Source: Opitutaceae bacterium
GTDB taxonomy: Bacteria; Verrucomicrobiota; Verrucomicrobiia; Opitutales; Opitutaceae
Assembly: GCA_016795565.1 (NCBI GenBank)
Contig: JAEUGW010000026.1
Span: 1 to 64,000 of the forward strand
Reading direction: 5' to 3'
Length of the DNA: 64,000 nucleotides
A model generated the notes under the pieces. The model was given only the letters and a program-made list of their open reading frames with translations, was not told the DNA's origin and made no database searches. The translations under genes and the position numbers were made by a program. This document shows, one piece after another, positions 1 through 13,753 of this stretch. Numbering within the stretch: position 1 is the first letter of the stretch; every line of letters begins with the position of its first letter.

Positions 1-216
1 CGTGCGGGCCGGCTCGTCGAGTTGCGCCTTGCGCCCCTGGCGGCGCACCTGCGCCAACTGCTTGCGCGGTTGCTGCGCCCAGCGGCTGACTGACTGGCGA
101 GAGGTCTTCAGTCGTCTCGCCACCTCCGCCTGCGCCACGCCTTCATCCAACAGCCGGCGCGCTTCCAAGCGGCGCGCCTTCAGCGCCTCCGCGTCCATCT
201 TCTGTCCTTTTGGCAT
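1..216 (-). CDS. IS630-type transposase, N-terminal part (runs off the window)
   Basis: Only the first 72 codons are in the window; the gene continues beyond base 1. The visible protein starts MPKGQKMDAEALKARR and contains a helix-turn-helix (LLDEGVAQAEVARRLKTSRQ, then SVSRWAQ), followed by a basic linker and QLDEPART. This is the DNA-binding N-terminus typical of IS630/Tc1-mariner transposases and related winged-helix proteins. The DDE catalytic domain is not visible, so it is unknown whether the element is intact. ATG at 216 was chosen; an in-frame ATG at 222 is also possible. It lies beside a tRNA gene and an integrative island, a usual setting for insertion sequences. Confidence 0.72.
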   Translation of the reverse strand, partial: MPKGQKMDAEALKARRLEARRLLDEGVAQAEVARRLKTSRQSVSRWAQQPRKQLAQVRRQGRKAQLDEPART

Positions 217-349
217 GCCCATGCCCAAAGGGTGCGGAAAGACCACCACTTGTCACTTCTTTAAGTAATCCTCAATAATTCCGGCTGCTTCCGCCATTTT
301 AGAGAACCCGACATTCCCTACGTGATCTCACACAGTCCAAATGATGAGA

Positions 350-436
350 TGGTGCCCGGGGTGGGGGTCGAACCCACATGATCTTGCGATCGGCAGATTT
401 TGAGTCTGCAGCGTCTGCCAATTCCGCCACCCGGGC
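350..436 (-). tRNA. tRNA-Leu (anticodon CAA)
   Basis: The minus strand gives an 87-nt cloverleaf with acceptor stem GCCCGGG/CCCGGGC, discriminator A and an encoded CCA. The anticodon stem-loop is GCAGA-CTCAAAA-TCTGC, so the anticodon is CAA (reads UUG). A long variable arm (CGATCGCAAGATCAT) is typical of leucine tRNAs, and the T-arm is GTGGG-TTCGACC-CCCAC. Its last 28 nt are identical to the tRNA-Leu fragment at 13567-13594, which lies on the opposite strand next to the integrase. Confidence 0.97.
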
Positions 437-487
437 GACGTTGTGTCATGCCACGCGAAGAAAAAATGAGTGGCAAGCTGTAATGCA

Positions 488-958
488 CTACATTCCCGTC
501 TGTGGAGCCGGATAGACCGACCCATTACCGGGTATCTTCGTTCCAGCGATTAGCTGGGACCTCAATTCACGATACTTGCCGACCAGTTCGAGGATCGCTG
601 GCGTGAGAATGGCGCCAGTGGTTTTTCCGGTCAGCACACACTCCTTGGCTAGGTTAAAATCATAGAGCAATTCCTCGAGTCCGCGCAGCAGCGCATACTC
701 CTCTGCATTGAAGCGCTGCGATATGGGCTGAGGATCCTTGCCCGTTTGAAGGCGATATCGGTAAACGATGGGTGGGGACCCAGGTCCCGGATCTTTTTCC
801 TGAAGCATTCCCTCAACGCACTGCTCGACGCAGGCGTTGACGAATTCGTTGGGGTTCATGTCCAGTGCGCCTGACAGTTCGAGCACGTGAGGCGTGAGAT
901 GCTTGTGTAAACTCAGTCCGACGCGATCTGGATTGGTGGGCTTCTTCTTGGATAACAT
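488..958 (-). CDS. Hypothetical protein, possible small DNA-binding accessory protein
   Basis: This 156-aa protein is not recognised. It starts MLSKKKPTNPDRVGLSLHKH and is followed by a helical stretch (LTPHVLELSGALDMNPNEFVNACVE) whose layout, a short basic strand followed by two helices, loosely resembles ribbon-helix-helix proteins of plasmid relaxosomes. The rest is soluble and mixed, with no membrane segment. It is divergent from the HTH and relaxase genes and shares the 82-bp intergenic region with them. That position suits an auto-regulator or relaxosome accessory protein, but this is inference only. Confidence 0.55.
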   Translation of the reverse strand: MLSKKKPTNPDRVGLSLHKHLTPHVLELSGALDMNPNEFVNACVEQCVEGMLQEKDPGPGSPPIVYRYRLQTGKDPQPISQRFNAEEYALLRGLEELLYDFNLAKECVLTGKTTGAILTPAILELVGKYRELRSQLIAGTKIPGNGSVYPAPQTGM

Positions 959-1002
959 GGGATGGCCTTGGTTATCACTAGACGTAAAGTGCTGGTATCA
1001 AA

Positions 1003-1030
1003 TTGACAACAGCAATTAACATGCTATCCT
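1003..1030 (+). promoter_or_regulatory. Predicted sigma70-type promoter of the relaxase operon
   Basis: A perfect -35 box TTGACA (1003-1008) is followed after 16 nt by TATCCT (1025-1030), which carries an upstream TG (1022-1023) as in extended -10 promoters. Transcription would start near 1037, only a few bases before the ATG at 1041, so the mRNA would be almost leaderless. The surrounding DNA is AT-richer than the rest of the island. Confidence 0.55.
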
Positions 1031-1040
1031 ATGTTTTCGC

Positions 1041-1310
1041 ATGGAAACAACTACCCCTCCCCCCTACGACTCACCGCCCATGGCCCTCGACAAGTGGATT
1101 GCCGAGGTCGGCATCAATCCCAGCACCGCCTGGCAATGGCGGAAACGGGGGTGGCTGAGCACCGTGAATATCGCGGGCCGGCACTACTTGACGGCCACCC
1201 AGAGGGCGGAATTCGTCCGTCGAGCCGAGGCGGGGGAATTTGCCCAAGCCCCGGGTGGCGCTTTGGCCAAGCATGGCAACCGGGCTGTCGCCCTCCATGG
1301 GCCGAATTGA
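1041..1310 (+). CDS. Excisionase/MerR-like helix-turn-helix protein
   Basis: An 89-aa protein. Residues 14-60 (MALDKWIAEVGINPSTAWQW and the following RKRGW, AGRHYLTATQRAEFVRRAEAGEF) form a winged helix-turn-helix of the kind found in excisionases and phage-type regulators. The W-x-W-RKRG recognition helix is followed by a strand-turn that holds the conserved aromatic residue. A second start at 1080 (MALDKW) would give 76 aa and fits the domain better. It lies 3 nt upstream of the relaxase gene in the same operon. It may act as recombination directionality factor for the integrase at 12109-13374 or as an operon regulator; the sequence does not decide between these. Confidence 0.72.
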   Translation: METTTPPPYDSPPMALDKWIAEVGINPSTAWQWRKRGWLSTVNIAGRHYLTATQRAEFVRRAEAGEFAQAPGGALAKHGNRAVALHGPN

Positions 1311-1313
1311 GGC

Positions 1314-4175
1314 ATGTTCACGATGGCGAAAATCCGGAACGGAAGCACCTATCTGGGGAATCACCTCACGGCGAACGACTATTACTCGGAAAAGGAAGCG
1401 GTCACGGGCGAATGGACCGGCTTGGCGGCGGAGAAACTTGGGTTGGCCGGCCGACGGATCGGAGCGAAGGACGAGGCTTTTGAGCGGTTACGGCAGAATC
1501 GGCATCCCCTGACGGGGCGCAAGCTGACGTCACGGATGGGTGCGGGACGGATCGTATTTCTGGATTTCCAGTGCTCGGCACCGAAGAGTGTCTCGATGCT
1601 CGCGGTCACCTTCGGTGACGAACGGCTGTGCGCCGCGCACCGGGAGGCGGTTACGGTGGCGTTTGCCGAGCTTGAGCGGTTTGCAGCCCGCCGGGTGCGG
1701 GCGGGTGACGCGGCCTGGTCAGAGCAGACTGTGGTGACCAGCAACCTCTGCGCGGCCCGGTTCGAGCACGATGCCTCCCGGGCACTCGACGCGCAGTTGC
1801 ACACGCATCTGGTCACGGCGAACGCCACATTCGATGCCAAGGCGAACCGGTGGTTTGCGCTGACCGAGCGCCAAATGCTCGCCGCGATCCGTTATGCCGG
1901 GAAGGTCTATCAGAACGAGCTCGCCTGCCGGGTGCAGGCCGCCGGCTACGAGATCGAGTCCACGCGTAACACCCGCGGTGCCGTCGAGGGTTTCGAGATT
2001 GTCGGCATCACCGCGGAAGAGCGTGCGCGGGCATCGAAGCGCCGAGCGCAAATCGAGCGAGAGATCGCCGCCTTTCAGAAGAAATTCGGCCGGGAGCCTA
2101 CCACGCGCGAGATTCATGCGATGACCACTGCCACGCGCGACCCGAAGCTGGCGGAAATTACCACCGCCGAGGTGCGCCAGCGACAGCGCGCCGAGTTTGC
2201 CCTGGAACGCGCCCGGGAACTCGACCAGCTCGTCGACCAGGCCCGCCGCCGCGACCCGGTCACAGGCGAAGCGCCCACCGAGGCCGCTTGTCTGAAGCAG
2301 GCTCGCGACCACCTGTTTGAGCGCGCCAGCGTGCAGCAAGGTCACGAGGTCCTCGCCGAGGCTTTGAACCAGGGCTTGGGAACGGTCTCGCTCGACCGGC
2401 TCAAGGAGGCGCTGGCTGAAGGCAAGGTGACCGATTGCGTGCCGCTGAAACGTCAGGCCGACAGCCTCACTGCACCTTATGGCACCCGGGAAGGGCTGCG
2501 GCAGGAGTTGGAATCCATCCGGATCGTGAACGCCGGCCTGAACCGGGGCATGCCGTTGTGGTCGCAGCGATTCGAGTCGGACCCCCGGCTTTCCACGGAC
2601 CAATGCCGCGTGGTAAAATCCCTCCTCACCTCGACCGACACAGTGTGCGCGCTGCGCGGCGTGGCCGGCACGGGCAAGACCACGACCTTGCAGGAATTGC
2701 AGCGCGGCTTGCGGGAAATGAATCGGGACGTCATCGCGTGCGCCCCGACGACCTCAGCCGCGCAGGAATTGCGGGCGCAGGGGTTTGCGAACGCCACCAC
2801 GTTGGAGGATTTTTTGCAGAAATCGAATACGGCGAAGTATGGCGACCTGGGCCGGGGCACGACCCTCATCGTGGATGAGGCCGGCATCGCCGGCACCAGG
2901 CAGGGCGCCGCCCTGCTGGAGCGCGTGAACGACCACAGCCTGCGGCTCATCCTCGTGGGCGACACGAAACAGCATTCCGGCGTCGAGGCAGGCGATTTCC
3001 TGTCCGTCCTCGAACGGCACTCCCGGCTGCGAACCTTTGAATTGACCGATATCCGCCGGCAACAGCACCCGGAATATCGCTCGGCCATCAAGCTCATGGC
3101 GCAGGGTCGGGCGTATGAAGGTCTACTGGCGATCGACCGGCTCGGTTGGCTTCAGGAGGCAAAGGGTGATTACATCAAGCGGGCCGCCGAGCACTACGTC
3201 GGCAATGTGGTGCAGAAGCGCGAGACGGTCCTGGTTGCTCCCACTTGGGAGGATATCCACCGGTTGACCGATGCGGTCCGCCGCGGGCTCAAGGCCGGCG
3301 GCCTCCTTGGCCAGGGCGAGGTCGTCACCGTTGCCGAGCCGCTCAGTTGGACCAAGGCGCAGGCGGCCAAGGCCGTCAATTATCAGCCAGGGCACCTGCT
3401 CACGCTCCACCGGGCCGTTCTCGAAACGGGTCTGCCCACAGGTAGCACACTGGAGGTTGTCACCGTCAAGCGTGGCCAACTGCTGGTGCGGGACACGCAG
3501 GGAAAGGAGCAGAGCGTTTCGCCGGCGCGGCAATCCGATGCCTGGACAGTCTCCCGATCCCGCGAGATCGAGCTGGCACCCGGTGACCGCGTGCTCATCC
3601 GGCAAAACCATAGGGCTACCGGGCTCGTCAACGGTGATGTGCTCACGCTCGAGTCGCGCCAGGCGTCGGGCGCGTGGCTGGCGCGTGATCCCAGGGGCCG
3701 TGCGCGACAGATCCCGGCCGACTTCCGGGCGCTCACACACGGCTACGCAGTCACTTCACACAAGGCCCAGGGCCGCACGGCGGACGAAGTGATCGTGTGT
3801 GCCGCGCAGCTCGACACCAAGAGCGCCTATGTGGCCTTCTCGCGCGCCCGGCACCGGGCCACCGGCTACACGCCCGATAAGGCCGCACTCTTCGACGCGC
3901 TGCCCAATACATCCCAGTCGCGCGCGGCTGCGGTCGATGTTTGGACGCCGGAACGCACGCGGCATCTCCATTGGGCCCGGCGCGTGATCGAGCGGATGCG
4001 GCAAATATTCGTTCCCGTGGTTCCCCCGGTGGATTTCACCGTGGAACTGACTCCGCCAGTGCGACCGAATGCCACCGCGAAGGAGTCCGTTGCCGAAACC
4101 CGGCGTCCCCGCGTCTCCTACAGTGAATCTCCCAGCGAGTCGGCTCCGTCGGTCCGGCAGGGAATGCGGATGTAA
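1314..4175 (+). CDS. MobF-family conjugative relaxase-helicase (TrwC/TraI type)
   Basis: The 953-aa protein nicks one strand at oriT and unwinds it during conjugation. The relaxase domain occupies about residues 1-300. It has a tyrosine pair NDYY (Y23, Y24) near the N-terminus as nucleophile and a metal site formed by H152, H163 and H165 in FEHDASRALDAQLHTHLV, the MobF signature. The helicase part has Walker A GVAGTGKTTTL near 450, Walker B LIVDEAG, and the UvrD-C2 motif YAVTSHKAQGRT near 811. The length matches plasmid TrwC proteins (about 970 aa). The downstream ATG at 1323 (MAKIRNGSTYLG) fits family N-termini slightly better. All key residues are present, so the enzyme should be active. 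Confidence 0.95.
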   Translation: MFTMAKIRNGSTYLGNHLTANDYYSEKEAVTGEWTGLAAEKLGLAGRRIGAKDEAFERLRQNRHPLTGRKLTSRMGAGRIVFLDFQCSAPKSVSMLAVTFGDERLCAAHREAVTVAFAELERFAARRVRAGDAAWSEQTVVTSNLCAARFEHDASRALDAQLHTHLVTANATFDAKANRWFALTERQMLAAIRYAGKVYQNELACRVQAAGYEIESTRNTRGAVEGFEIVGITAEERARASKRRAQIEREIAAFQKKFGREPTTREIHAMTTATRDPKLAEITTAEVRQRQRAEFALERARELDQLVDQARRRDPVTGEAPTEAACLKQARDHLFERASVQQGHEVLAEALNQGLGTVSLDRLKEALAEGKVTDCVPLKRQADSLTAPYGTREGLRQELESIRIVNAGLNRGMPLWSQRFESDPRLSTDQCRVVKSLLTSTDTVCALRGVAGTGKTTTLQELQRGLREMNRDVIACAPTTSAAQELRAQGFANATTLEDFLQKSNTAKYGDLGRGTTLIVDEAGIAGTRQGAALLERVNDHSLRLILVGDTKQHSGVEAGDFLSVLERHSRLRTFELTDIRRQQHPEYRSAIKLMAQGRAYEGLLAIDRLGWLQEAKGDYIKRAAEHYVGNVVQKRETVLVAPTWEDIHRLTDAVRRGLKAGGLLGQGEVVTVAEPLSWTKAQAAKAVNYQPGHLLTLHRAVLETGLPTGSTLEVVTVKRGQLLVRDTQGKEQSVSPARQSDAWTVSRSREIELAPGDRVLIRQNHRATGLVNGDVLTLESRQASGAWLARDPRGRARQIPADFRALTHGYAVTSHKAQGRTADEVIVCAAQLDTKSAYVAFSRARHRATGYTPDKAALFDALPNTSQSRAAAVDVWTPERTRHLHWARRVIERMRQIFVPVVPPVDFTVELTPPVRPNATAKESVAETRRPRVSYSESPSESAPSVRQGMRM

Positions 4176-4180
4176 CCAGT

Positions 4181-4558
4181 ATGGAATTACCACCCAAATC
4201 CGGGCACGGGTCCAAACCGAAGACGCAGTTGGATCGTGACCAATACCAGGCCAATCGGAGCATGCTGATATTTACTCGGGCTGACGGCAGCACCATTGGG
4301 TTTTCGCTCTCGTGGCTTTACCGGTTCGACTATCGGAAGGACGGCCGCGAGGAAAAGTTAACCCTGCACCTGACCGAACACCTAGTCACCGTGGTCGGCT
4401 GGATGCTGGGCATGGCGGTGGGGCAGCTCCAACAAGGCGAAGGATTCCACCTCAGCGAGGTGCCGGAACGATACAAGGGTCTCCAGCGAAATGAGGATGC
4501 CCATATCGCCACCATCACCATCGCACCAGTGACAAAGCCCAATCACGAGAACAACTGA
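4181..4558 (+). CDS. Hypothetical protein of the relaxase operon
   Basis: A 125-aa protein starting 5 nt after the relaxase stop codon, so very probably cotranscribed with it. No family is recognised. It is soluble, with a mixed alpha/beta pattern (IFTRADGSTIGFSLSWLYRF, then a KDGREEKLTLHLTEHLVTVV segment) and no signal peptide, transmembrane segment or metal-binding motif. Tight linkage suggests a role in mobilization or its control. The region just after it changes sharply in base composition. Confidence 0.6.
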   Translation: MELPPKSGHGSKPKTQLDRDQYQANRSMLIFTRADGSTIGFSLSWLYRFDYRKDGREEKLTLHLTEHLVTVVGWMLGMAVGQLQQGEGFHLSEVPERYKGLQRNEDAHIATITIAPVTKPNHENN

Positions 4559-4740
4559 ATCAACCACTCTCAAAACAACCAAACCAACAACAATACGCAC
4601 ACTCACCCTAACCAAACCAGATACAAAACAGCCTACCAAATTCACTCAACCAAACCTCAAGAATCAAACGACCAATGAACCCGTCAAAAAGCACATCAAA
4701 AATCCAAATCTAATGAAGAGAGACGCAATATCCCTAACGC
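4559..4740. other. G-depleted C+A tract, candidate oriT/single-strand signal
   Basis: Between the relaxase operon and the TraK/L/M-like operon lies an open stretch with extreme strand asymmetry. In 4561-4680 there are only 6 G and 13 T in 120 bases, the remainder being A or C, against a GC-rich background. It has no clear hairpin and no gene. In mobilizable elements the origin of transfer usually lies next to relaxosome genes, and strand-biased, poorly structured DNA is typical of regions handled as single strands. The assignment to oriT is inference. Confidence 0.4.
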
Positions 4741-4867
4741 CGTTTTGGCGTTGGGCCGGACCTGCTGCGGCGCAGCCGGATCATTCGAGCCTTGTCCGAA
4801 GTTCATCCGAACTGGGGCGCACCGCTGCCTGAAATCTTCGAATCAGCTCGAATCACTTCGACCAACC

Positions 4868-5185
4868 ATGCCCGGACGGCCCTTCCAGTCGAAACTGCTC
4901 CCGCACCTCGAATTCATCCGCGAGTGCCGCGCGCAGCGCATGAGCTACCCGCGGGTCGCTGCCGAACTGCGAGCCCGTTTCGGCCTGCACAGCGCGCCCT
5001 CGACCATCTTTTCCTTCGTCAAGGTGCGCGCGCGCCGGCGCCCGGTTTTTGCCCTGCCGGAGTCGATCCGGACCCCGACTGCTCCGGCCATGCCTCATCC
5101 CACCCAGCCTGCACCGCGAGCCGGTGCCCGCAGTAGCTGGCTTTCCTACAACCCGGCCCAACCCCTGGAGAAAGACCCACCATGA
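4868..5185 (+). CDS. TraK-like relaxosome accessory protein
   Basis: A 105-aa basic protein starting MPGRPFQSKLLPHLEFIREC. Its helical core (YPRVAAELRARFGLHSAPST, then IFSFVKVRARRR) and a proline-rich tail ending SWLSYNPAQPLEKDPP resemble TraK of IncP plasmids, an oriT-binding protein of about 130 aa with a basic helical core and a similar F-N-P-x-P-N-K-E-D tail. The stop codon overlaps the next start as ATGA, as in IncP traK-traL. An in-frame ATG at 4745 is possible but lies in non-conserved sequence. The match was made by eye, supported by gene order. Confidence 0.65.
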   Translation: MPGRPFQSKLLPHLEFIRECRAQRMSYPRVAAELRARFGLHSAPSTIFSFVKVRARRRPVFALPESIRTPTAPAMPHPTQPAPRAGARSSWLSYNPAQPLEKDPP

Positions 5186-5913
5186 CCAAATTATCCAAAT
5201 GCATCGTCTTCTCGTGCGGCGGCAAGGGCGGCGTCGGCAAGACGACCGTCGCAACCGCCATCGCCGACTTCTACGCCGCACGTGGCATTGCCGCGACTCT
5301 CTTCGACTGTGACACCGAAAACAAGACACGCGGTTCGCTTAGCCATTACTACCCGGCCGCGGGCAAGCTCGACATCCGCACCGAGCGCGGACTCGACCAG
5401 TTCATTGATGCAGCGCTCTCGGCCGACGCGCCGGTCGCGCTGGCTGACCTCGCCGCCGGGTCCGGTCGCGACACCTTCAAGTGGTTCGACACCATGTTCG
5501 GGGGCTTGGCGGCGGCCGATGGCATCCGGTTCACGGCCGTTGCCACCATCACCAGCGCCGCCAGCAGCGTGGAGTCGCTGTTCTCATGGGCGGAAGCGCT
5601 GCGCGACCGCGTGCGCTACCTGGTCGTCAAGAATCACGTTGCCGGGGACGACTTCGGTTATTTCGAGAGGACGGAGCCCGGTCGGGCTTTCCTCGCACAG
5701 GCCCAGCCGGCGATCATTGAGCTGAAGGCCCGCGCCCGTGAGATTCAGGCCGAGCTCGACAACCGCGGTCTCACCGCCGCGCAGGCAATGGCAGCCGACG
5801 CCGCCCGGCGCGGTCCGATCCTTCACGGTGGCACCGCGCGCATCCGCGCAGAAGCCTACGCCCGGCAGATCGACACTGCCCTGGAGTCGGCCCGCCAACT
5901 GCTCCTGCCATGA
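5182..5913 (+). CDS. TraL-like ParA/MinD-type ATPase of the mobilization module
   Basis: A 243-aa P-loop ATPase with the deviant Walker A motif GGKGGVGKTT (residues 13-22) characteristic of ParA/MinD proteins, and DCDTENKTRG in the switch region. The partner genes are not parB-like. The gene lies between TraK-like and TraM-like genes, the IncP order traK-traL-traM, so a role in conjugative DNA processing is more likely than partition. A good ribosome binding site (GGAGAAAG) precedes the ATG, and the start and stop codons overlap both neighbours as ATGA, giving strong translational coupling. A plasmid-type partition ATPase is the alternative. Confidence 0.72.
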   Translation: MTKLSKCIVFSCGGKGGVGKTTVATAIADFYAARGIAATLFDCDTENKTRGSLSHYYPAAGKLDIRTERGLDQFIDAALSADAPVALADLAAGSGRDTFKWFDTMFGGLAAADGIRFTAVATITSAASSVESLFSWAEALRDRVRYLVVKNHVAGDDFGYFERTEPGRAFLAQAQPAIIELKARAREIQAELDNRGLTAAQAMAADAARRGPILHGGTARIRAEAYARQIDTALESARQLLLP

Positions 5914-6503
5914 ACGGGCCGCCCCGCTTTCAAGATTCAGTGTATGACCGCATTGGCACCTACCTGCCGGCGGACCAACGGGAAATGTATTACCGGTATG
6001 TGGCGCATCTGCGAACCCTGGAGCCGGGTGACTCGTTGCTGGTCCTCGCCGAGGGAATGGCGGTGTTCGCCTGCATCTCCCGGCAGGTGCCGGAAGCACT
6101 GGCCGCCGAGCGCGAGAAACTCTTGGCCGAATTCACCCAGCTCTGCCGCAAGCACGAGACCACCACGGCCAACGCCACTGCGGACACACGCGCCATGTTT
6201 GCGGCCCATCAGAAGCTTTTTGAGCAGAGCATCGGCACTTGGCAGAGCCGGGAACAGCAGGCAGTTCAGGCGTTGGAGCGAGTGACCAAAGCCTTCGAGA
6301 AGGAAATCGAGCAGCGCGCAACACGGCTCCAGTCGCTCATCCAGTCCCTTGAAACCGTCACCCATGCCCACAAGGCCGCCGCCTTGGAGACACAGCGTTG
6401 GGTTCAGGGCATCAATTGGGACCAGCGTATCTGGCCCTGTATCGCGAGCCTCGCGGTTGGAACATTGATAGGTGCAGCGGTCCTTTACTTCGGACCCCAA
6501 TAG
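5910..6503 (+). CDS. TraM-like coiled-coil membrane-anchored mobilization protein
   Basis: A 197-aa protein with a soluble N-terminus (about 1-65), a long helical, probably coiled-coil middle (about 66-170, rich in E, K, Q, A, R) and one C-terminal membrane segment (IWPCIASLAVGTLIGAAVLY) ending FGPQ. IncP TraM has the same plan, a long helix plus a C-terminal anchor, and the same place after traL. The start overlaps the TraL-like stop (ATGA). It is the last gene of the operon; the next gene is convergent. Confidence 0.62.
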   Translation: MNGPPRFQDSVYDRIGTYLPADQREMYYRYVAHLRTLEPGDSLLVLAEGMAVFACISRQVPEALAAEREKLLAEFTQLCRKHETTTANATADTRAMFAAHQKLFEQSIGTWQSREQQAVQALERVTKAFEKEIEQRATRLQSLIQSLETVTHAHKAAALETQRWVQGINWDQRIWPCIASLAVGTLIGAAVLYFGPQ

Positions 6504-6568
6504 CGGGAGGCTCACTTAGCCCCCTGTGCATAAGTCCTGATTTGCACCGCTTGGGCCTGACTATTTGT

Positions 6569-9004
6569 TCATTCCGTTCGCAACGCGGTTAAGGGATCGA
6601 CCCGCATGGCCCGTAACGCGGGAAGAAGGCACGCTACGGAAGCAATCAGTGTGAGAATCGCAGCGATGCTGATGAATGTCAGCGGATCGTAGGCCGTGAC
6701 TCCGAAGAGCTGGTTTTGCAACGCGCGGGTGAGCGCCAATGAACCAAGCAGACCCGCGGAGATCCCGACTGCGACAAGCTTCAGGCCGCTTTGCATGATC
6801 ATCTGGAGAATATCGCCACGTTGTGCCCCGATAGCCATTCGGATGCCAATCTCCTGCCGACGTTGGGTAACTGCAAAGGCCATGACGCCGTAGAGGCCGA
6901 TGGCGGCGAGGAGCAGAGCCAGGCCGGAGAAAAAGCTGAGCAGTCGAGTGACGAGCCGGCGGGGGCCGACGGCGTTGTCGACCAGACGGTCGAGCTCATA
7001 ATAGTCGCCAGTCGGCAGGCTGGGATCGTGGCTGGCAAGCGCGGCGCGCACCTCAGGGATTAGCGAGCCCGGTGGCCGATTTGAGCGCACGACCATTTCC
7101 AGCCCCAAGGTGTCGTTGCCCTGCCGAAAACAGAGATACATTTCGGGGCCTCCGCCTTGCTCAAGCGAACTGTGTCGGACATCAGCCACAACACCGATAA
7201 TGGTAGCGCCGTCCTTACCGAGCCTGATTTTCTGGCCGAGCGGATCACGTTTATCGGGAAATGCCGCCCGAGCGAGGCTCTCGTTAATGACGACGGCACG
7301 AGGTGCCTTTTCGTCATCTCGCTCCTCGAAAGTGCGACCGGAGATGAGGGCGATCTTCATGGTCCTCAAATACCGATGGTCGACGAATCGCGGGTAGGCG
7401 CCGGGATATTTCCCCTTGGGATAGGTGACGCCGATCGCGCCGGCGCCCCAAGAACGATTGCGCCCCAGAGGCAAGCAGTCGCTCAGGCCGACCGATTCCA
7501 CGCCGGGTAACGCGGCTACCCGCGCGACTAGAGAGTCGAAATAAACGTTTGCCTCGGCCGGGCCGGCGAAAGCGCGCGGCGAATCGACGCGCCAGGCCAT
7601 TGCGTGCTGCGGTTGGAAGCCCAAGTTCACCTGAAGCACGGCATGAAAACTACGAAAAAGCAGGCTGGCGCCGACCAGAAGCATGCATGCGAGAGCGACC
7701 TCGGTGACGACGAGAAGGTTGCGGATGTGGGCAGCTGAATGTCCAGCGCTACGCTGGTGCGTCGTGTTCTGAAGCGTGGGCGAACTTTGCCGTGAAAGTT
7801 GCAAGGCCGGTAGCAAACCGCAGGCAATGCCGACCAGCATCGTTAAGCCAACGGTGACGGCCAACGCCAAGGGATCAACCGAGGCGTCTTGGAGAAGCGG
7901 CATCCCAAACGTCTGTAGCTGCGCGAGCACGTGCGTCGTCCAGACGGCCAGCAGCACACCGATGCCCGAACCGCCGAAGGCCAAGACAAGACTCTCTGTG
8001 AGGGCCTGCCGGATGAGGTGACCGCGGGTGGCTCCGAGTGCGATGCGCACGGCGAACTCTTGCCGCCGGACGTTAACCCGGGCGAGCAGCAGATTCGAGA
8101 GGTTGACGCACGCGATGACCAGCACGCAGGCAACCGCTCCCGCCAAGAGCAGGAATGGTCCGCGAAACCGACCGCGCAGCGCCGTGTCGAGAGGTGAAAC
8201 CACGGCACCGAAGGTCCAACCATTAGGAATGGATGATGGACCAGTGCGGAGTTGTTCGTTGATCACTGTTAATTCTGCTTGGGCTTGCTCGAGTGTCACA
8301 CCCGGTTTGAGCCGGCCAATTCCAAAGATTGTGTTGCCCAAACGGGCCGATTCAGGGGTGAGTGGGAAGGGTTGAATAACGTCCACCTCGTTCCCCGGGG
8401 AAAAGATAGCATCGAAATCAAAAGTGTCCGGCAGAACACCGACGACGGCGGTCGGCGAATTGTTAAGGATGAACACACGTCCGATCACCGTTGGGTCACC
8501 GGCGAAACGGCGCTGCCAAAAACTGTGGCTCAGGATGACGGCCCCGGGTTTGATGGTCAGTCCGTCCTGTCCCCGCCATCGGCATTCCTCGGCAGTGAAA
8601 TTGCGGCCGTGCGCCAGGCCGACGCCGAGCACGGGCAAGAAGTTGTCTGAAACGGCGACGCTACGCAGCCGTTCGGGTTCGCCTGAGCCGCTGAGCGTTA
8701 GGCGGCCATAGTCGGAGAAAGCAAAGTAGGCCGCGAGCGCTTCGAAGCTTTTGTTGTGCTCGCGCCAGCTGTTGAATACATCGGCCCGCGCGGTGCGGCC
8801 GGAAAGGCCGCCGCCGGAGCCGTTCTCTATCCAAACAAGGCGCTCGGGCTCGCGGATCGGGAGGGGTTTAAGCAGCACTGCACGGGCGATACTGAACATA
8901 GCCGTGCAGACGCCGATACCGAGCGCCAAGGTTGCGATGGCTACAAAAGTAAAACCCGGGGATTTGGCGAACTGCCGAAGAGCGAACCGGATGTCGGAGA
9001 GCAT
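6569..9004 (-). CDS. MacB/FtsX-type ABC permease (acidobacterial duplicated orphan permease)
   Basis: The 811-aa protein has an N-terminal membrane segment (FTFVAIATLALGIGVCTAMF), a large MacB-type periplasmic domain, three membrane segments in the middle (around the NLLLARVNVRRQEFAVRIAL motif), a second periplasmic domain, and three more C-terminal segments ending VDPLTALRTE. This duplicated layout of about 800 aa without its own ATPase matches the ADOP family, abundant in Acidobacteria and Verrucomicrobia. Such proteins belong to type VII ABC systems coupled to outer-membrane or envelope processes; the substrate is unknown. No ATP-binding protein or membrane fusion protein is nearby, so it is an orphan cargo gene of the island. 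Confidence 0.9.
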   Translation of the reverse strand: MLSDIRFALRQFAKSPGFTFVAIATLALGIGVCTAMFSIARAVLLKPLPIREPERLVWIENGSGGGLSGRTARADVFNSWREHNKSFEALAAYFAFSDYGRLTLSGSGEPERLRSVAVSDNFLPVLGVGLAHGRNFTAEECRWRGQDGLTIKPGAVILSHSFWQRRFAGDPTVIGRVFILNNSPTAVVGVLPDTFDFDAIFSPGNEVDVIQPFPLTPESARLGNTIFGIGRLKPGVTLEQAQAELTVINEQLRTGPSSIPNGWTFGAVVSPLDTALRGRFRGPFLLLAGAVACVLVIACVNLSNLLLARVNVRRQEFAVRIALGATRGHLIRQALTESLVLAFGGSGIGVLLAVWTTHVLAQLQTFGMPLLQDASVDPLALAVTVGLTMLVGIACGLLPALQLSRQSSPTLQNTTHQRSAGHSAAHIRNLLVVTEVALACMLLVGASLLFRSFHAVLQVNLGFQPQHAMAWRVDSPRAFAGPAEANVYFDSLVARVAALPGVESVGLSDCLPLGRNRSWGAGAIGVTYPKGKYPGAYPRFVDHRYLRTMKIALISGRTFEERDDEKAPRAVVINESLARAAFPDKRDPLGQKIRLGKDGATIIGVVADVRHSSLEQGGGPEMYLCFRQGNDTLGLEMVVRSNRPPGSLIPEVRAALASHDPSLPTGDYYELDRLVDNAVGPRRLVTRLLSFFSGLALLLAAIGLYGVMAFAVTQRRQEIGIRMAIGAQRGDILQMIMQSGLKLVAVGISAGLLGSLALTRALQNQLFGVTAYDPLTFISIAAILTLIASVACLLPALRAMRVDPLTALRTE

Positions 9005-9427
9005 AGTGGGATAACTTTCAGCCGGACAACATACCTTAACACTCCGCCACCGCCCAAAGGCAAACGGCTAATTGCACAAAATGAGAATTTTGATCTCCGT
9101 CCCCCTCGGCCGCCACTGGCAGAAAAGAATGCCCCCAGCGCGAAGCGCATTCATTTCCCCGGCACCTCGGAAGTGCCGATAGCGACGCCGACCTGAGTAG
9201 GCCGCGGGTTGAAAACTGACTGCTAGGCAGCGGCAGGCACAGGCAGGCTGACCACGGCTGCGGGTGTGGCGCTCGCTTCGTAGTCCTCGAGAGCCGGCAG
9301 TGTCACCCGTGCGTTCCTTGCGTAGGCCCGATGCACCGCCTTAGAGGGCTCCATCCGCCCCATTGGTCGGCTTTGTCTATCTTCTTCTGGCAAGTGCGGA
9401 GAAATGAGATGCATCATCGCGGAAAGT
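9005..9427. other. Intergenic region without convincing gene
   Basis: This stretch upstream of the orphan permease presumably carries its promoter, although no strong -35/-10 pair stands out. A 64-codon minus-strand reading frame (9223-9417) lacks a recognisable domain and was not accepted. Nothing else is supported. Confidence 0.4.
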
Positions 9428-9471
9428 TTATTCCGCCCGCAACACCACCATCGGGTCCACCTTCCCGCCCG
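9428..9471 (-). pseudogene. 3' scar of an ADOP-type permease gene
   Basis: Directly downstream of the TonB-C lipoprotein gene the minus strand reads GGKVDPMVVLRAE-stop. This is the characteristic C-terminal end of MacB/FtsX-type orphan permeases; the intact copy at 6569-9004 ends VDPLTALRTE-stop. Only about a dozen codons remain, so the rest of the gene has been lost by deletion or recombination. Confidence 0.5.
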
Positions 9472-10047
9472 CTACTTCCCGACTTCCACCCCGCCTGATT
9501 CAGTGAAGGTAAACGCCAGGTCGATCTGGGTGCTTACAGCCTGACGGCGAATCACCCGCCAGTAGGACGAACCATCATTCTGCACCCGCTCGTTCTGTAG
9601 AAGTTCAGCCGGCACGAAACGCCACTGCCACACTGCGCTTTCCACGGCGCCGCGAAAAGCTTCAGCATAAGGACCGACCGTGGAAAACGTCAGCAGACTC
9701 GGTCCGATATCGGTCACCCGCCCCGCCTCGTCCACCATGACTCGGACGCCGACCACTGCCCGGCCCGCTTTCGCCTTGAGGGCTTTGGATGGATAGATCG
9801 GCTGCATTATTGGCGGTAGCGGCTGGGCCTGCACGAATTCCTCCCCGTAGCTTACCTTGCTGGCGCCCGTCTCGCCCGTCTCGACAGTCTCACGCACGGC
9901 CACTTTGTCCGATGCCATTGATTGCATCGAAATGATGGCAAACGAGCTTACCCCTGTGCCGGTCGCCTCAATCGATCTATGACGGCATCCCACCAAGCCG
10001 AGCAAGACCACCCCCGCCCAGAGTTTCCCTTTTGTCACGGATTTCAT
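9472..10047 (-). CDS. TonB C-terminal domain lipoprotein
   Basis: A 191-aa protein starting MKSVTKGKLWAGVVLLGLVG, followed by the lipobox cysteine C21, so it is a predicted lipoprotein. After a variable region, residues about 85-185 (PIMQPIYPSKALKAKAGRAV onward, with VVGVRVMVDEAGRVTDIG) match the TonB-C/energy-transducer fold in which V-x-V-D-x-x-G-x-V is typical. It lacks a TonB-type N-terminal membrane anchor and Pro-rich linker, so it is probably a periplasmic homologue, not a true TonB. The start overlaps the tail codons VVGLRAE-stop of a vanished permease gene as ATGA. An upstream ATG at 10137 adds 30 non-conserved residues. Confidence 0.72.
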   Translation of the reverse strand: MKSVTKGKLWAGVVLLGLVGCRHRSIEATGTGVSSFAIISMQSMASDKVAVRETVETGETGASKVSYGEEFVQAQPLPPIMQPIYPSKALKAKAGRAVVGVRVMVDEAGRVTDIGPSLLTFSTVGPYAEAFRGAVESAVWQWRFVPAELLQNERVQNDGSSYWRVIRRQAVSTQIDLAFTFTESGGVEVGK

Positions 10048-10411
10048 TCCGCCCGCAACCCCACCACCAGTCTTCGCGCGAAGGCTGCTGCCAGACGAGA
10101 AGCCACGTTCGTTGATGTGCCGGCAAAAATATCTCATGGTGTAAGTGGCTACGCGAAGGATGGACGGTTGTAGACCTCGACGGCGGAGGTCATCGCCGCC
10201 AGTGCCTTATCGACCATTCTGGTGCTGACTGGGAGTTTCATAGGGCAGTAGAACACTAGCGAAAGCCTTGCAGAACTCGACAAATAATCGGCCGAAGTGC
10301 GCGACCTACATCTTCCGGCGCCGGCTACATTGCGCGCACCTGAATTAAGGCGCCGACCGCCTCCGAGATTCTCCCGAATAGGAGACGGTGTCCGGAGAAT
10401 TCAACTGTCGC
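10048..10411. other. Intergenic region with permease remnant and weak hairpin
   Basis: Immediately upstream of the TonB-C gene the minus strand encodes VVGLRAE-stop (about 10044-10067), the tail of another orphan permease gene. A hairpin ATTCTCC (10368-10374) / GGAGAAT (10394-10400) lies downstream of hipA and could help termination, though no T-run follows. Nothing else is recognised. Confidence 0.35.
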
Positions 10412-11731
10412 TCAAGGTTCATTCGCAAGCCGTCCGGCCTGCTCCTGTATGCCAGCAAAGATTCGGTCACTCACCCGTGCAGGGAAACCCGGCGGCAGTT
10501 GGCCGCCTACCTCCGCAATCACCTCAGGAACTTGGCGAATCACTTCCGCAATTAGGCCGCACGCGTCACCCAAGCCGGCGATGCGGGTCACCGCGTCCCA
10601 ATGCCGCGGGAGAATGTCCTTCAACTTCCAATGGGCGTTGCGGCTGCGGACCGCCATCGCGAGCTTCGCTTTCTGCCATTGGAGCAGGCGCGGGCCGTTG
10701 CCGATGATCGGCCAGGCAGAAAGCACATCGTAGAATGGAGTGAGCCGGTAGGTCCCGCCGCGCTCGTGAAAGAGGGAAAAATTCTTGGCGTGGCCGTCCG
10801 TGGCAGCGAGCAGCCAGAACACAATTTGGGCTTTGGCGAAGGCCCGCTTGTCTTGCTCCGCGCGGGAACTCGTGGCCAGCACGCGCAGGATGGCGCTCAT
10901 GCCGGGCCCGCCATCGGCCTCGTATTTGAACCGCGCAGGCTGGCCGAGCGCTTGACAGAAATCCTCCTGCGGCAGGCGGGCGATCCAATGGCCGTCTTCC
11001 CAAGCTCGGTCGAAGCGCTGCACAACGAGCACCTTGCGCTCCCCGAACTGTGCGATCTCGCAATGGGCGGTCTCAAGGCCGAAGGCCTGCATCAGGCGGG
11101 AGCAGAGCCATTCATTCTCGACGGAGTCTTGCATGTCCGCCTGCAGGTTACCGACCAGCCCGAGCGGCAGCTTCAGAATGTGAGTGGTGGGGGTGGAGCC
11201 CTTCGGTCGGCACCAGCGGTTGCGGTGGAATAGCAGGGCGGTCTTTTCCTGCGCCCCGGCAATGGAGATACGGAATTCCTCTCCATCCGCCTGCCCAAGC
11301 ACACGGCCGCCAGAGAGGGCCGCGCCAATGGCCTGTTCTACGCCGGTGTCATCCAGAGGCTCGGCTTCGATCCGATCATACCCCTGCGGGGGCGTGCCCT
11401 CCGGCAGCAGTTGCACAGCACCAACGCAATCGCGACCGATCGCCGTGAGCAGGTCGAAAGCGCCGGTGGAATCCGTGGCGAACCGGGACTGGAGACGGGC
11501 GCGGATGCCGTCGCTGTCGGGCAGGAGATTGTCGAAAAAATAGGTGACGGTTTCGCCGCGGTGCGGTGCGTTGCCCGGGGCAAACGGCAATGAAAGCGAA
11601 AGCACGCGGGCGGCGGGGGAAGCCACCCAGCCGGCATCATACTGGAAGGACGGGGAGCCAGCGCGGGGTTGCGACCACACGCCGACGCGTTCGCCATTCA
11701 TCCAGACAACGAGGTGGGTGGATTTGGACAT
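10412..11731 (-). CDS. hipA: HipA toxin, serine/threonine kinase
   Basis: A 439-aa protein, essentially the length of E. coli HipA (440 aa), which phosphorylates glutamyl-tRNA synthetase and causes growth arrest and persistence. Conserved features include the phosphorylated P-loop motif RISIAGAQEKTALL (S156 corresponds to E. coli S150), the PTTHILKLPLG nucleotide-binding stretch, VQRFDR, the catalytic loop LLAATDGHAKNFSLF (D312) and the metal-binding FYDVLS (D335). All catalytic residues are present. It lies 12 nt downstream of hipB in the usual antitoxin-first order and is controlled by the same operators. Confidence 0.95.
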   Translation of the reverse strand: MSKSTHLVVWMNGERVGVWSQPRAGSPSFQYDAGWVASPAARVLSLSLPFAPGNAPHRGETVTYFFDNLLPDSDGIRARLQSRFATDSTGAFDLLTAIGRDCVGAVQLLPEGTPPQGYDRIEAEPLDDTGVEQAIGAALSGGRVLGQADGEEFRISIAGAQEKTALLFHRNRWCRPKGSTPTTHILKLPLGLVGNLQADMQDSVENEWLCSRLMQAFGLETAHCEIAQFGERKVLVVQRFDRAWEDGHWIARLPQEDFCQALGQPARFKYEADGGPGMSAILRVLATSSRAEQDKRAFAKAQIVFWLLAATDGHAKNFSLFHERGGTYRLTPFYDVLSAWPIIGNGPRLLQWQKAKLAMAVRSRNAHWKLKDILPRHWDAVTRIAGLGDACGLIAEVIRQVPEVIAEVGGQLPPGFPARVSDRIFAGIQEQAGRLANEP

Positions 11732-11743
11732 GGATGGGGATAA

Positions 11744-12004
11744 TTACCAGCCGGCTCGACCCGGTTTTTGTTTCTTGGGGACGGTAGGACCGGTGTCTTC
11801 TATGACGACCCGACCACCAAGGATCGCCACCAGTTTCGCAATCTGATCGAAGCTGGTGCGGTCAGGTGCCGACTCGATGCGCGCCACGCGCTTCTGGCTG
11901 ACCCCCAACAGTTGGCCGACCTGGGCTTGGCTGAGGCCCCGGCCGTGCCGTAGGGCGCGCAGGACCGCGCGGGCTTGCGCGGGGGTGTCGATTGGGTAGT
12001 TCAT
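11744..12004 (-). CDS. hipB: HipB antitoxin, XRE-type regulator
   Basis: An 86-aa protein with an XRE/Cro helix-turn-helix (ALRHGRGLSQAQVGQLLGVS, then QKRVARIESAPDR, residues about 16-50) and a short C-terminal strand plus tail ending in W, as in E. coli HipB (88 aa, also ending in W), whose tail is a degradation signal. It neutralises HipA and represses the operon. The mRNA is predicted to be leaderless because the -10 box (12011-12016) lies only 6 nt before the ATG. Confidence 0.92.
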   Translation of the reverse strand: MNYPIDTPAQARAVLRALRHGRGLSQAQVGQLLGVSQKRVARIESAPDRTSFDQIAKLVAILGGRVVIEDTGPTVPKKQKPGRAGW

Positions 12005-12010
12005 GCACTG

Positions 12011-12039
12011 AAGTTACTACTCTAAGGGAGTAATGTCAA
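12011..12039 (-). promoter_or_regulatory. hipBA promoter
   Basis: On the minus strand a perfect -35 box TTGACA (12034-12039) is followed after 17 nt by TAACTT (12011-12016). The predicted start point coincides with the hipB ATG. Operator O1 covers the spacer between the two boxes, so bound HipB would block RNA polymerase. Confidence 0.65.
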
Positions 12040-12086
12040 GATACTCCTTTTAGAGAGTATTATTGTTTTACTATCAATAGGTAGTA
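12015..12086. promoter_or_regulatory. Three HipB operators, 27 bp apart
   Basis: Three sites share the form TACTM-N8-KAGTA: O1 12015-12032 (TACTA-N8-GAGTA), O2 12042-12059 (TACTC-N8-GAGTA) and O3 12069-12086 (TACTA-N8-TAGTA). Their starts are exactly 27 bp apart. The half-site plus 8-bp spacer layout is that of E. coli hip operators (TATCC-N8-GGATA), which supports assignment to HipB. Confidence 0.75.
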
Positions 12087-12108
12087 ACATGAGGACCATG
12101 CCGGGCGC

Positions 12109-13374
12109 TTAGGACGCGAGTTCGGACGTGCTGGAGGATTCAACCGGGAGTGAGATTATGGAGCCAACGCGATGCGATTCGTTCCCGGCAGCGGGCGGGG
12201 TGTTCGGCGCTGTCACCGTCAGCACCGCATCGGCGGACGCCTGCTGAGCGAGACTGAAGCTCACCTTCTGCGCCATGCGGCGCTTGTGGTCGGCGGCGAG
12301 GTGTCCATAAACCTTGTCGATCAAGCCGGTGCCGGACTCGTGGCCGAGCCATTCGGCGATGGTTTTGAAATCAAGGCCCGACATGACGCAGTAGCTCGCA
12401 AAGAAATGCCGCAGGTCGTGAAACCCGACCCATTCTAGGCCGGCCTCCGCGCGAGCGGCAAAGAGGCTGCCCCGCAGGTCGCTCGCAGGAATGTCCTTTT
12501 CACCGCGCTGCGGCGACGGGAACAGATATCTGCAGTCGGGCGCCCGGCGCGCGTGCATGGTGCGCAGGTGCGCCTCAAGCGCTGGGTTGAAATCGACCAC
12601 ACGGGCTTTGCCATTTTTTGATAAACCGTCGCTGCCAAACGTCACTTGGCGGTGATCAAAAGAGACATCCTTCCATTTCAAGCGGAGTGCCTCCCGATAA
12701 CGCCCGCCGCTATAGCCCAGGAAGCGGATGAAGTCGGCGAGGATTGGCCCCGACCGGTTGGACGAAGCATCCGCCTTCTGGCACAAAATCGTGAATTGGT
12801 CGTCCTTGAGCAGAGGACGGACCGGGGCCTTGTAGCGGAGCGGTTTCACCCCGACGGTCGGCAGATCCTTAAGGTAGCCGAGTTCCTGTGCGAACTTGCA
12901 GACTTGTCGTAGGTGGATGAGGTCGATGTTTACCGTGCGTGGGTTGCTCCCGCCCCGCAGGCGTTTTTGCATGAAAGCATAGATCATCGGGTGGGTGATG
13001 GCATTTGTCCGGATGTGGCCGAAATGCGCGCGCCATCTATTGAGGCTGTAGCGTTCCCGCTTGATCGTGGATTTGCGTTTGATCGCGTGCTTCATGTTCT
13101 CATGCAAGTCTAGGTATCGGTCACAGCAGGTGCCGAACGAGGGAATGACCAACGGTTCTGCCGCAGCATCGCCTTCGTTGCGAATCTGGCGCTTGCGGTC
13201 CATTTCCAAGATGCATGCCTCCGGGGTAGTAGATTCGAGGAGGATGCGACGCGGCAGCATGCGACCGTCGGGCTGCTTCACGCGAAGCTGCATGTAGCAC
13301 AAACCGTTTCGCTCCCAAAGGCCGGGAATGCGCCGGCCAGAACTATCCGTAACTCCCTTGTATTCACTGCTCAT
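12109..13374 (-). CDS. Tyrosine recombinase/integrase of the island
   Basis: A 421-aa phage-type integrase. It has an N-terminal arm-binding region, a SAM-like core-binding domain (about 80-170) and a C-terminal catalytic domain with R225 (YSGGRYREALRLKW), H319 and R322 (HDLRHFF), H345 (LGH) and the nucleophile Y356 (DKVYGHL). The complete catalytic set is present. ATG at 13374 was chosen because a GGAGG sits 8 nt upstream; an ATG at 13440 adds 22 unlike residues. The gene lies 163 bp from the tRNA-Leu fragment, the usual place of an integrase next to its attachment site. Confidence 0.94.
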   Translation of the reverse strand: MSSEYKGVTDSSGRRIPGLWERNGLCYMQLRVKQPDGRMLPRRILLESTTPEACILEMDRKRQIRNEGDAAAEPLVIPSFGTCCDRYLDLHENMKHAIKRKSTIKRERYSLNRWRAHFGHIRTNAITHPMIYAFMQKRLRGGSNPRTVNIDLIHLRQVCKFAQELGYLKDLPTVGVKPLRYKAPVRPLLKDDQFTILCQKADASSNRSGPILADFIRFLGYSGGRYREALRLKWKDVSFDHRQVTFGSDGLSKNGKARVVDFNPALEAHLRTMHARRAPDCRYLFPSPQRGEKDIPASDLRGSLFAARAEAGLEWVGFHDLRHFFASYCVMSGLDFKTIAEWLGHESGTGLIDKVYGHLAADHKRRMAQKVSFSLAQQASADAVLTVTAPNTPPAAGNESHRVGSIISLPVESSSTSELAS

Positions 13375-13520
13375 GGGAGCCTCCGATTGGTTGACGTTGA
13401 ATTGGATTGTTCTGCATTGGAAGCGCCGGCTGTAGCACAAACCCCACTTTCGACGCGGATAGACCTTCTAGCAAAAAAGCTCGAAACACGCGAGCTACAT
13501 GTAGATAGAATTTCATGGTG

Positions 13521-13537
13521 CCACTCACACTGAGTGG
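13521..13537. repeat. Hairpin abutting the attachment site
   Basis: Perfect 6-bp inverted repeat CCACTC-ACACT-GAGTGG lying directly against the first base of the tRNA-Leu fragment. It could be part of the integrase core or arm site. Confidence 0.5.
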
Positions 13538-13594
13538 TCTCAAAATCCGCCGCCCCCTAAAGGCTTGTGGGTTCGACCCCCACCCCGGGCACCA
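13538..13594 (+). other. tRNA-Leu 3' fragment, probable att site of the island
   Basis: The 57 bases run from the anticodon loop (CTCAAAA) through a variable arm to the T-arm, acceptor 3' strand and CCA of a leucine tRNA. There is no 5' half: the preceding bases do not contain GCCCGGG or a D-arm. It shares its last 28 bases with the intact tRNA at 350-436 but has another variable arm, so it derives from a different tRNA-Leu gene. Such a 3' copy beside an integrase gene is the usual scar of integration into a tRNA gene. Core genes start immediately after it. Confidence 0.8.
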
Positions 13595-13753
13595 GCCTTC
13601 GCCAACGCGAAGCGAAGGTGAAGGCTGCCATCCATAGCCTTGGCGACGGATGGTGCGATAAGGGCATGATTGACGCTACGGCTGGCAGGCTGTTTCTTTC
13701 CCAGTCCGGAAAGAAATCCATCCGCCGTAGCCTTGGCGAAGGCAGCCTGAACC
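13595..13753. repeat. Copies of a GCC(G/A)TAGCCTTGGCGA repeat
   Basis: Short related palindromic segments occur several times: CATAGCCTTGGCGACGG near 13634, and CCGTAGCCTTGGCGAAGG near 13724. Related forms recur at about 61240 and 62725-62790. They are dispersed intergenic repeats without coding capacity. Confidence 0.55.

Follow-up and report, generated by a model that had tools for sequence, protein, structure and literature searches.

The window examined here, a stretch of 64,000 nucleotides from an Opitutaceae bacterium (assembly GCA_016795565.1, contig JAEUGW010000026.1, positions 1 to 64,000), carries at its left end a chromosomal element with a MobF relaxase gene and a TraK-TraL-TraM-like trio. 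Judged from its sequence, the element is quite probably an integrative and mobilizable element (IME) that targets a tRNA gene and is mobilized by a co-resident helper. The relaxase gene (1314-4175, + strand) encodes a TrwC-like relaxase-helicase of 953 amino acids, which scores 236.7 bits against Pfam TrwC (cut-off 25) and 183 bits against NCBIfam MobF (cut-off 100). Its motifs are intact, namely the two-tyrosine DYY, the histidines of HTH and FEHD and, for a superfamily 1 helicase, Walker A GVAGTGKT and VDEAG. With curated cut-offs exceeded and catalytic motifs complete, the relaxase-helicase assignment made in a preliminary description of this DNA is borne out, and the gene coordinates given there were all confirmed.

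The trio lies downstream on the same strand at 4868-5185, 5182-5913 and 5910-6503. The order and the ATGA overlaps ascribed to it hold. The three genes encode a small helix-turn-helix (HTH) protein, a ParA-superfamily ATPase with the motif KGGVGKTT, and a coiled-coil protein with a C-terminal transmembrane (TM) helix at residues 174-192 (hydropathy 2.01). Single-profile scans (Pfam, NCBIfam, PHROG) gave only generic P-loop/ParA matches and, for the TraM-like protein, low-scoring coiled-coil-type matches. Profiles were also compared with profiles: they were built for W-type, D-type and plasmid IncP-like proteins, the last from annotated plasmids, and aligned by hhalign. W-type is our name for the Opitutaceae family of predicted IMEs that includes the window element; in D-type loci the operon is divergent and ends with the gene for a type IV coupling protein (T4CP).

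The ATPase matched IncP TraL in the W-type (97.1%, E 5e-11), the D-type (99.2%, E 3e-19) and the pooled family (99.5%, E 2e-23, 235 columns), the aligned range being 146-235 columns. In contrast, the plasmid partition ParA IncC aligns with the TraL-like family over only ~45 residues around the P-loop. This difference in extent argues that the ATPase is a true relative of IncP TraL and not a partition ParA. D-type TraM also matched IncP TraM (93%, E 3e-7), and the pooled TraM family scored 53.4 against IncP, compared with a maximum of 38.8 in 100 block shuffles. W-type TraM was not significantly similar to IncP TraM (E 0.0075, 5%) or to D-type TraM; its homology to either was dropped, and it is TraM-like in position, coiled coil and C-terminal TM helix only. 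The TraK-like proteins of the two types are related (95.4%, E 2e-8), but comparison with IncP TraK gave E 0.25 for the W-type and 0.016 for the D-type and was not significant in several subsets. An AlphaFold2 (AF2) model of the TraK-like protein has a helical HTH-like core, and a structure search with it gave no useful match. The label is thus one of position and predicted HTH-like fold only. The proposal that the trio is an IncP-like TraK-TraL-TraM set therefore stands for TraL, stands for TraM in the D-type and not in the W-type, and finds no detectable similarity for TraK. The related premise that MobP is the usual partner of the IncP trio agrees with the PLSDB plasmids inspected: 8/8 of those with an IncP-type TraL and a relaxase type are MOBP, so that the pairing with MobF is a real difference. 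A TraL-TraM pair also occurs on the acidobacterial plasmid pACPOL3 (Acidisarcina; L039 8935-10409), where it adjoins a DUF3363 gene and a T4CP gene; its TraL is close to the W-type (E 2e-30).

A scan of 84,980 species genomes for the TraL family returned 54 loci, nearly all in Opitutaceae or elsewhere in the Verrucomicrobiota. The D-type order is also seen in two outliers, from a Planctomycetaceae and a Dechloromonas bin, which are short contigs and could be misbinned. The trio stands beside MobF in 16 W-type loci (L067-L080, L082 and the window; 15 cover the region from the small gene after MobF to traL) and in more than 30 D-type loci (L083-L117 and L119, with few exceptions), so the association is not due to chance. 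W-type loci have MobF, the small gene, traK, traL and traM in one direction and lack a T4CP gene. Among 252 genomes of the same family, W-type TraL was found in 13 and a D-type T4CP in 48. The 3.5-Mb genome that holds the window has seven MobF genes. Three belong to D-type copies (contigs C18, C43 and C5), in which traK-traM-T4CP is divergent from MobF and the small gene, traL is present in two of the three, and the T4CPs are of the TrwB/VirD4 kind. Elements of a third kind lie on C8, C32 and C10. Gene calling placed the small gene behind MobF in two of them (C32, C10) and an HTH gene across the intergenic region in C10, with similar sequence there in C8 and C32. The trio is not peculiar to elements without a type IV secretion system (T4SS). 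It is the standard accessory operon of a wider Verrucomicrobiota MobF family, most members of which have their own coupling protein and some T4SS-like genes. The suggestion of a little-studied class of chromosomal mobilizable element fits the combination of MobF with an IncP-TraL-type operon in an element without a T4SS.

A probable origin of transfer (oriT) lies between the small gene and traK. A G-poor leader, recognised by reading the sequence (4559-4718; its minus strand is G/T-rich), is followed at 4719-4758 by the core AGAGACGCAATATCCCTA with a covarying hairpin, which on the minus strand reads as hairpin-TTAGGGATATTGCGTCTCT. The 16-base core AGACGCAATATCCCTA was found at this place in 15/15 covering W-type loci; the window contains a single copy, at 4721. 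In the hairpin after the core the stem changes and the pairing is kept (AACGCC/GGCGTT, AACGCG/CGCGTT, ACGCCC/GGGCGT). Most D-type loci have, between traK and MobF, a different hairpin (stems CCTAAC/GTTAGG, CCTAGC/GCTAGG, CCGAAG/CTTCGG, CCGAAC/GTTCGG) and then an invariant GGTGGCGTGT. The oriTs of MobF systems consist of a hairpin and then a conserved tail, and by this plan the W-type and D-type hairpin blocks are probably oriTs. The W-type ...GGGATATTGCGTCT resembles the ...TATTGTCT of R388. A match in the leader to R388 TGCGTATTGT, at 4590, was considered as the nic site and dropped, being missing from the other W-type loci. Elements of the third kind share a GACACCAACGTCCAAGCG...CGCTTAGA hairpin block beside HTH-like sequence and a G-poor leader (L014 ~11570-11600, L015 ~11640-11675, L016 ~11340-11375), probably another oriT.

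Transfer-channel markers (T4CP, VirB4, VirB6, pilin, secretin, GspE and GspF) gave zero matches in window positions 1-13600, on contig C7, which carries the left end of the element, and in the W-type relatives tested. T4CP and VirB4 were absent from all 16 W-type loci, taken with as much as 9 kb of flank in either direction. In one relative (G011) ~17.5 kb of contig C50, from the left attachment site (attL) through MobF and the trio, were free of marker matches. The preliminary description had proposed to look for T4SS genes beyond the left edge; none was found on C7, and an assembly gap remains between C7 and the contig of the window, C44. The same markers detect clusters on C5 (L063 9271-19991 and L012 84-5658) and C38 (L064 3987-18887) of the same genome, and in another genome, G029 (L066 5972-19939 and L035 2-1783). 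The statement that there is no T4SS therefore holds for the assembled element and not for its genome, which has T4SS-like clusters elsewhere. These clusters are co-linear, with VirB4-like, VirB6-like and small pilin-like genes together with secretin, GspE/PilB, GspF and prepilin-like genes. At the curated cut-off of the VirB4 profile there was no match in the genome; two VirB4-like ATPases score below it. The combination of VirB4/VirB6/pilin genes with type IV pilus-like genes looks like an undescribed hybrid conjugation apparatus. The C5 and G029 clusters continue into a T4CP gene, the accessory operon and a D-type MobF, and VirB4 is close by at L093, L094, L104 and L106. W-type elements lack both a coupling protein and this VirB4/VirB6/pilin/pilus-like set, so that their mobilization is best explained by helpers of this kind. 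Having no transfer channel of its own, the window element probably hitchhikes through those of larger elements that share its cell.

The element is inserted in a tRNA-Leu(CAA) gene. The right attachment site (attR, 13539-13594, + strand) is the 3' half of the host tRNA gene, with the core CTCAAAAT at 13539-13546; the 5' half is on C7 (G000:C7, 7811-7772), adjoining accA. When the halves were joined in a script at CTCAAAAT they gave an intact tRNA-Leu(caa) with the anticodon stem GCGGA/TCCGC, and the separate halves gave none. Insertion took place at an 8-bp core in the anticodon loop. Relatives have an intact tRNA-Leu(CAA) ~1 kb from rsmE, and these are empty sites; in G020, accA, the tRNA-Leu match and rsmE are on one contig in that order. 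In G011 the same tRNA is split, and a homologous integrase (690 bits) sits at the same end. The host tRNA-Leu(CAA) beside rsmE, a recurrent integration site, has opposite orientations among relatives (L144, L145, L146, L147, L149); in G013 two copies lie 5 kb from each other in inverted orientation (L144 2779-2866 and 7791-7878).

On the element side, the sequence beyond the core does not resemble a tRNA, and integration therefore does not restore the host gene. An intact tRNA-Leu(CAA) borne by the element (350-436, - strand, called by ARAGORN) is the proposed replacement. It is 96% identical to copies in G011 and G017 across 148 bp that take in the flank on the side of the 488-958 gene, and its variable loop differs from that of the host tRNA-Leu(CAA). 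Three pattern searches found no other intact tRNA-Leu(CAA) in the genome. A simple insertion bounded by inverted tRNA-Leu repeats was considered; this difference in the variable loop, and the fact that the tRNA at 350 moves with the element, led to its rejection. The earlier picture of a tRNA-associated island is right in that the element is tRNA-targeted; the tRNA at 350-436, however, is element-borne, and the gene that was hit is split between 13539-13594 and another contig. A tRNA-Leu(UAA) is also present in the genome, which may let the cell survive without the CAA gene. The short core, the tRNA that is not rebuilt and the same-isotype tRNA carried are the marks of tRNA-dependent integration; the window element matches both criteria of tRNA-dependent lysogeny of mycobacteriophages (PMC10865867). 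Other W-type loci start at an intact tRNA-Glu, -His, -Asp or -Ser, directly followed by a ~403-amino acid tyrosine recombinase that differs from the window integrase. This recombinase was recognised by eye from its RHT...HY motif because Pfam gave no match.

Several neighbouring genes complete the element, and all of its reading frames are intact. The gene directly 3' of MobF (4181-4558, + strand) encodes a conserved protein of 125 amino acids, predicted to be beta-rich, and is common to the W- and D-type. A hidden Markov model (HMM) built from D-type sequences only detects it (E 3e-5) as well as W-type relatives (E values as low as 5e-13). Its AF2 model (pLDDT 76.8) had no Foldseek match at E <= 0.001 and no confident PDB fold; the best matches on a second look were pleckstrin homology (PH)-like folds at Z 5.7, which is too weak to be used. 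Ending just before MobF, a small protein with weak HTH matches in Pfam and NCBIfam (1041-1310, + strand), homologs of which precede MobF in G011 and G017, is a candidate excisionase or regulator. Its position could couple excision to relaxase expression, and such coupling has been proposed for Mesorhizobium IMEs with a different gene order (PMC8627217). An open reading frame at 488-958 (- strand) encodes a conserved protein of 156 amino acids of the window subgroup; G011 and G017 have homologs of it next to tRNA-Leu and MobF. Its N-terminus looks ribbon-helix-helix-like by eye, and it had zero matches in Pfam, NCBIfam and PHROG. The cargo, assigned by Pfam, comprises a MacB/FtsX-type ABC permease (6569-9004, - strand) and a HipBA-like pair of a HipA-like kinase and an HTH partner (10412-12004, - strand). 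Next to attR is the tyrosine integrase of the element (12109-13440, - strand; Pfam Phage_integrase, 66.7 bits). In G011 (L067 343-2972) and G017 (L148 6660-9298) a kinase-like gene and its partner are the left-end cargo, and other genes are found there in the window genome. Many D-type loci have N6-methylase/helicase fusions of 1763-1930 amino acids 3' of MobF (for instance L011 13705-18996 and L013 9242-15034), with a possible anti-restriction function.

These features suggest a transfer cycle. Excision would be carried out by the integrase, perhaps aided by the small HTH protein. MobF would bind the hairpin at 4719-4758 and nick the minus strand 3' of it, with the TraK-like protein bound beside oriT. 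The TraL ATPase and the membrane-anchored TraM-like protein would keep the relaxosome at the inner membrane near the coupling protein. Among the papers that could be read, the ParA of the gonococcal T4SS, which interacts with its relaxase and localizes to the membrane (PMC8716806), is the nearest experimental parallel to such a role. The T4CP and mating channel would be supplied in trans by a co-resident D-type element. In the recipient the integrase would insert the element at the 8-bp core in the anticodon loop of tRNA-Leu(CAA), breaking the gene, and the element's own tRNA-Leu(CAA) would take over its function.

Other readings of the same features were weighed. Since the hairpin at 4719-4758 is just upstream of traK, it might serve the traKLM operon as a regulatory site or terminator. 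This is unlikely, as no T-run follows the hairpin, its invariant flank is on one side only, as in MobF oriTs, and the D-type has a different hairpin with an invariant tail in the same place beside traK. That the trio is a partition system for an excised circle, with MobF serving replication or maintenance and not transfer, is very improbable. The best single-profile match of the ATPase is indeed ParA_partition (E 9e-7), and a match of this kind had been named in advance as evidence against a TraKLM trio; it spans the P-loop region only, whereas IncP TraL is matched far beyond it. Furthermore, the operon begins at the oriT-like site and its D-type counterpart ends with a coupling protein gene.

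The separate contigs of the left end and the window leave room for a complete integrative and conjugative element (ICE) with a T4SS in the gap between C7 and C44. This too is very improbable, because W-type loci with their flanks and the attL-to-trio stretch of G011 are free of channel markers. A decaying, immobile island remnant is the least probable of these alternatives. It would agree with the single W-type copy in the genome and with cargo that differs between copies, but the reading frames are intact, the motifs and oriT core are kept across genera, and insertion sites vary by genus (Leu, Glu, His, Asp, Ser) while relatives have empty sites. A helper-mobilized IME remains the preferred reading. 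The element has an integrase and defined attachment ends, with junctions in its own genome and in G011, and a relaxase with a conserved oriT-like site; T4SS and T4CP matches number zero in C7, the window and relatives, with one assembly gap. W-type elements and D-type T4CPs co-occur in 7/13 genomes compared with 41/239 other genomes (Fisher p = 0.004, in a test that ignores phylogeny and genome size). That limit of the test is one of several points that weigh against an IME mobilized by D-type helpers. The C7-C44 gap may conceal genes, and the sequence of W-type TraM shows no significant similarity to its D-type and IncP counterparts. Finally, 6/13 W-type genomes have no D-type T4CP match, which has to be put down to other helpers or to losses in assembly.

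A broader proposal is a Verrucomicrobiota-specific lineage that joins MobF to an IncP-type ParA/anchor relaxosome module and a hybrid VirB4/VirB6/pilin-type IV pilus/type II secretion apparatus, with satellites of which one subgroup replaces the tRNA it breaks; we regard this as an even call. The family to which the window element belongs shows that a TraL-type ATPase operon need not go with a MobP relaxase, offers candidate oriTs for probing the roles of TraL and TraM, and links satellites to putative helpers within one genome. The open-access literature yielded no account of the MobF and TraL-operon pairing, the candidate oriTs, the sister conjugative-type family or the replacement tRNA, nor of any conjugative or mobilizable element that brings a replacement for a tRNA gene it disrupts; the word 'conjugative' is absent from the phage paper that defines tRNA-dependent lysogeny.

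The module shares with Tra1 of the IncP plasmids RP4/R751 the order of a small DNA-binding-type protein, the TraL ATPase and a small coiled-coil protein anchored by its C-terminus, as well as short overlaps, transcription of the trio away from oriT and a homologous TraL. D-type TraM is also homologous, and the D-type operon is divergent as in IncP. It departs from IncP in that MobF replaces the MobP relaxase, neither TraK nor W-type TraM shows a detectable relationship, MobF of the W-type is transcribed towards oriT and the D-type T4CP comes after traM. With the MobF systems of R388 and F (TrwABC, TraI) it shares the relaxase-helicase and an oriT hairpin 5' of a short conserved tail. It differs from them in that no TrwA, TraM(F) or TraY homolog was recognised, and in its TraL-type ATPase operon and tRNA-gene integration. 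A 2017 review listed no known canonical IME with a MobF or MobH relaxase (PMC5704250), and IMEs of Mesorhizobium with traACD, typed as MOBF by their authors, were reported in 2021 (PMC8627217). Those are likewise chromosomal, use tRNA sites and are without a T4SS, but carry Ti-plasmid-like TraA/TraC/TraD and not TraK/L/M. Compared with mycobacteriophage tRNA-dependent lysogeny (PMC10865867), the window element is mobilizable and not a phage, and the lost tRNA-Leu(CAA) may not be essential.

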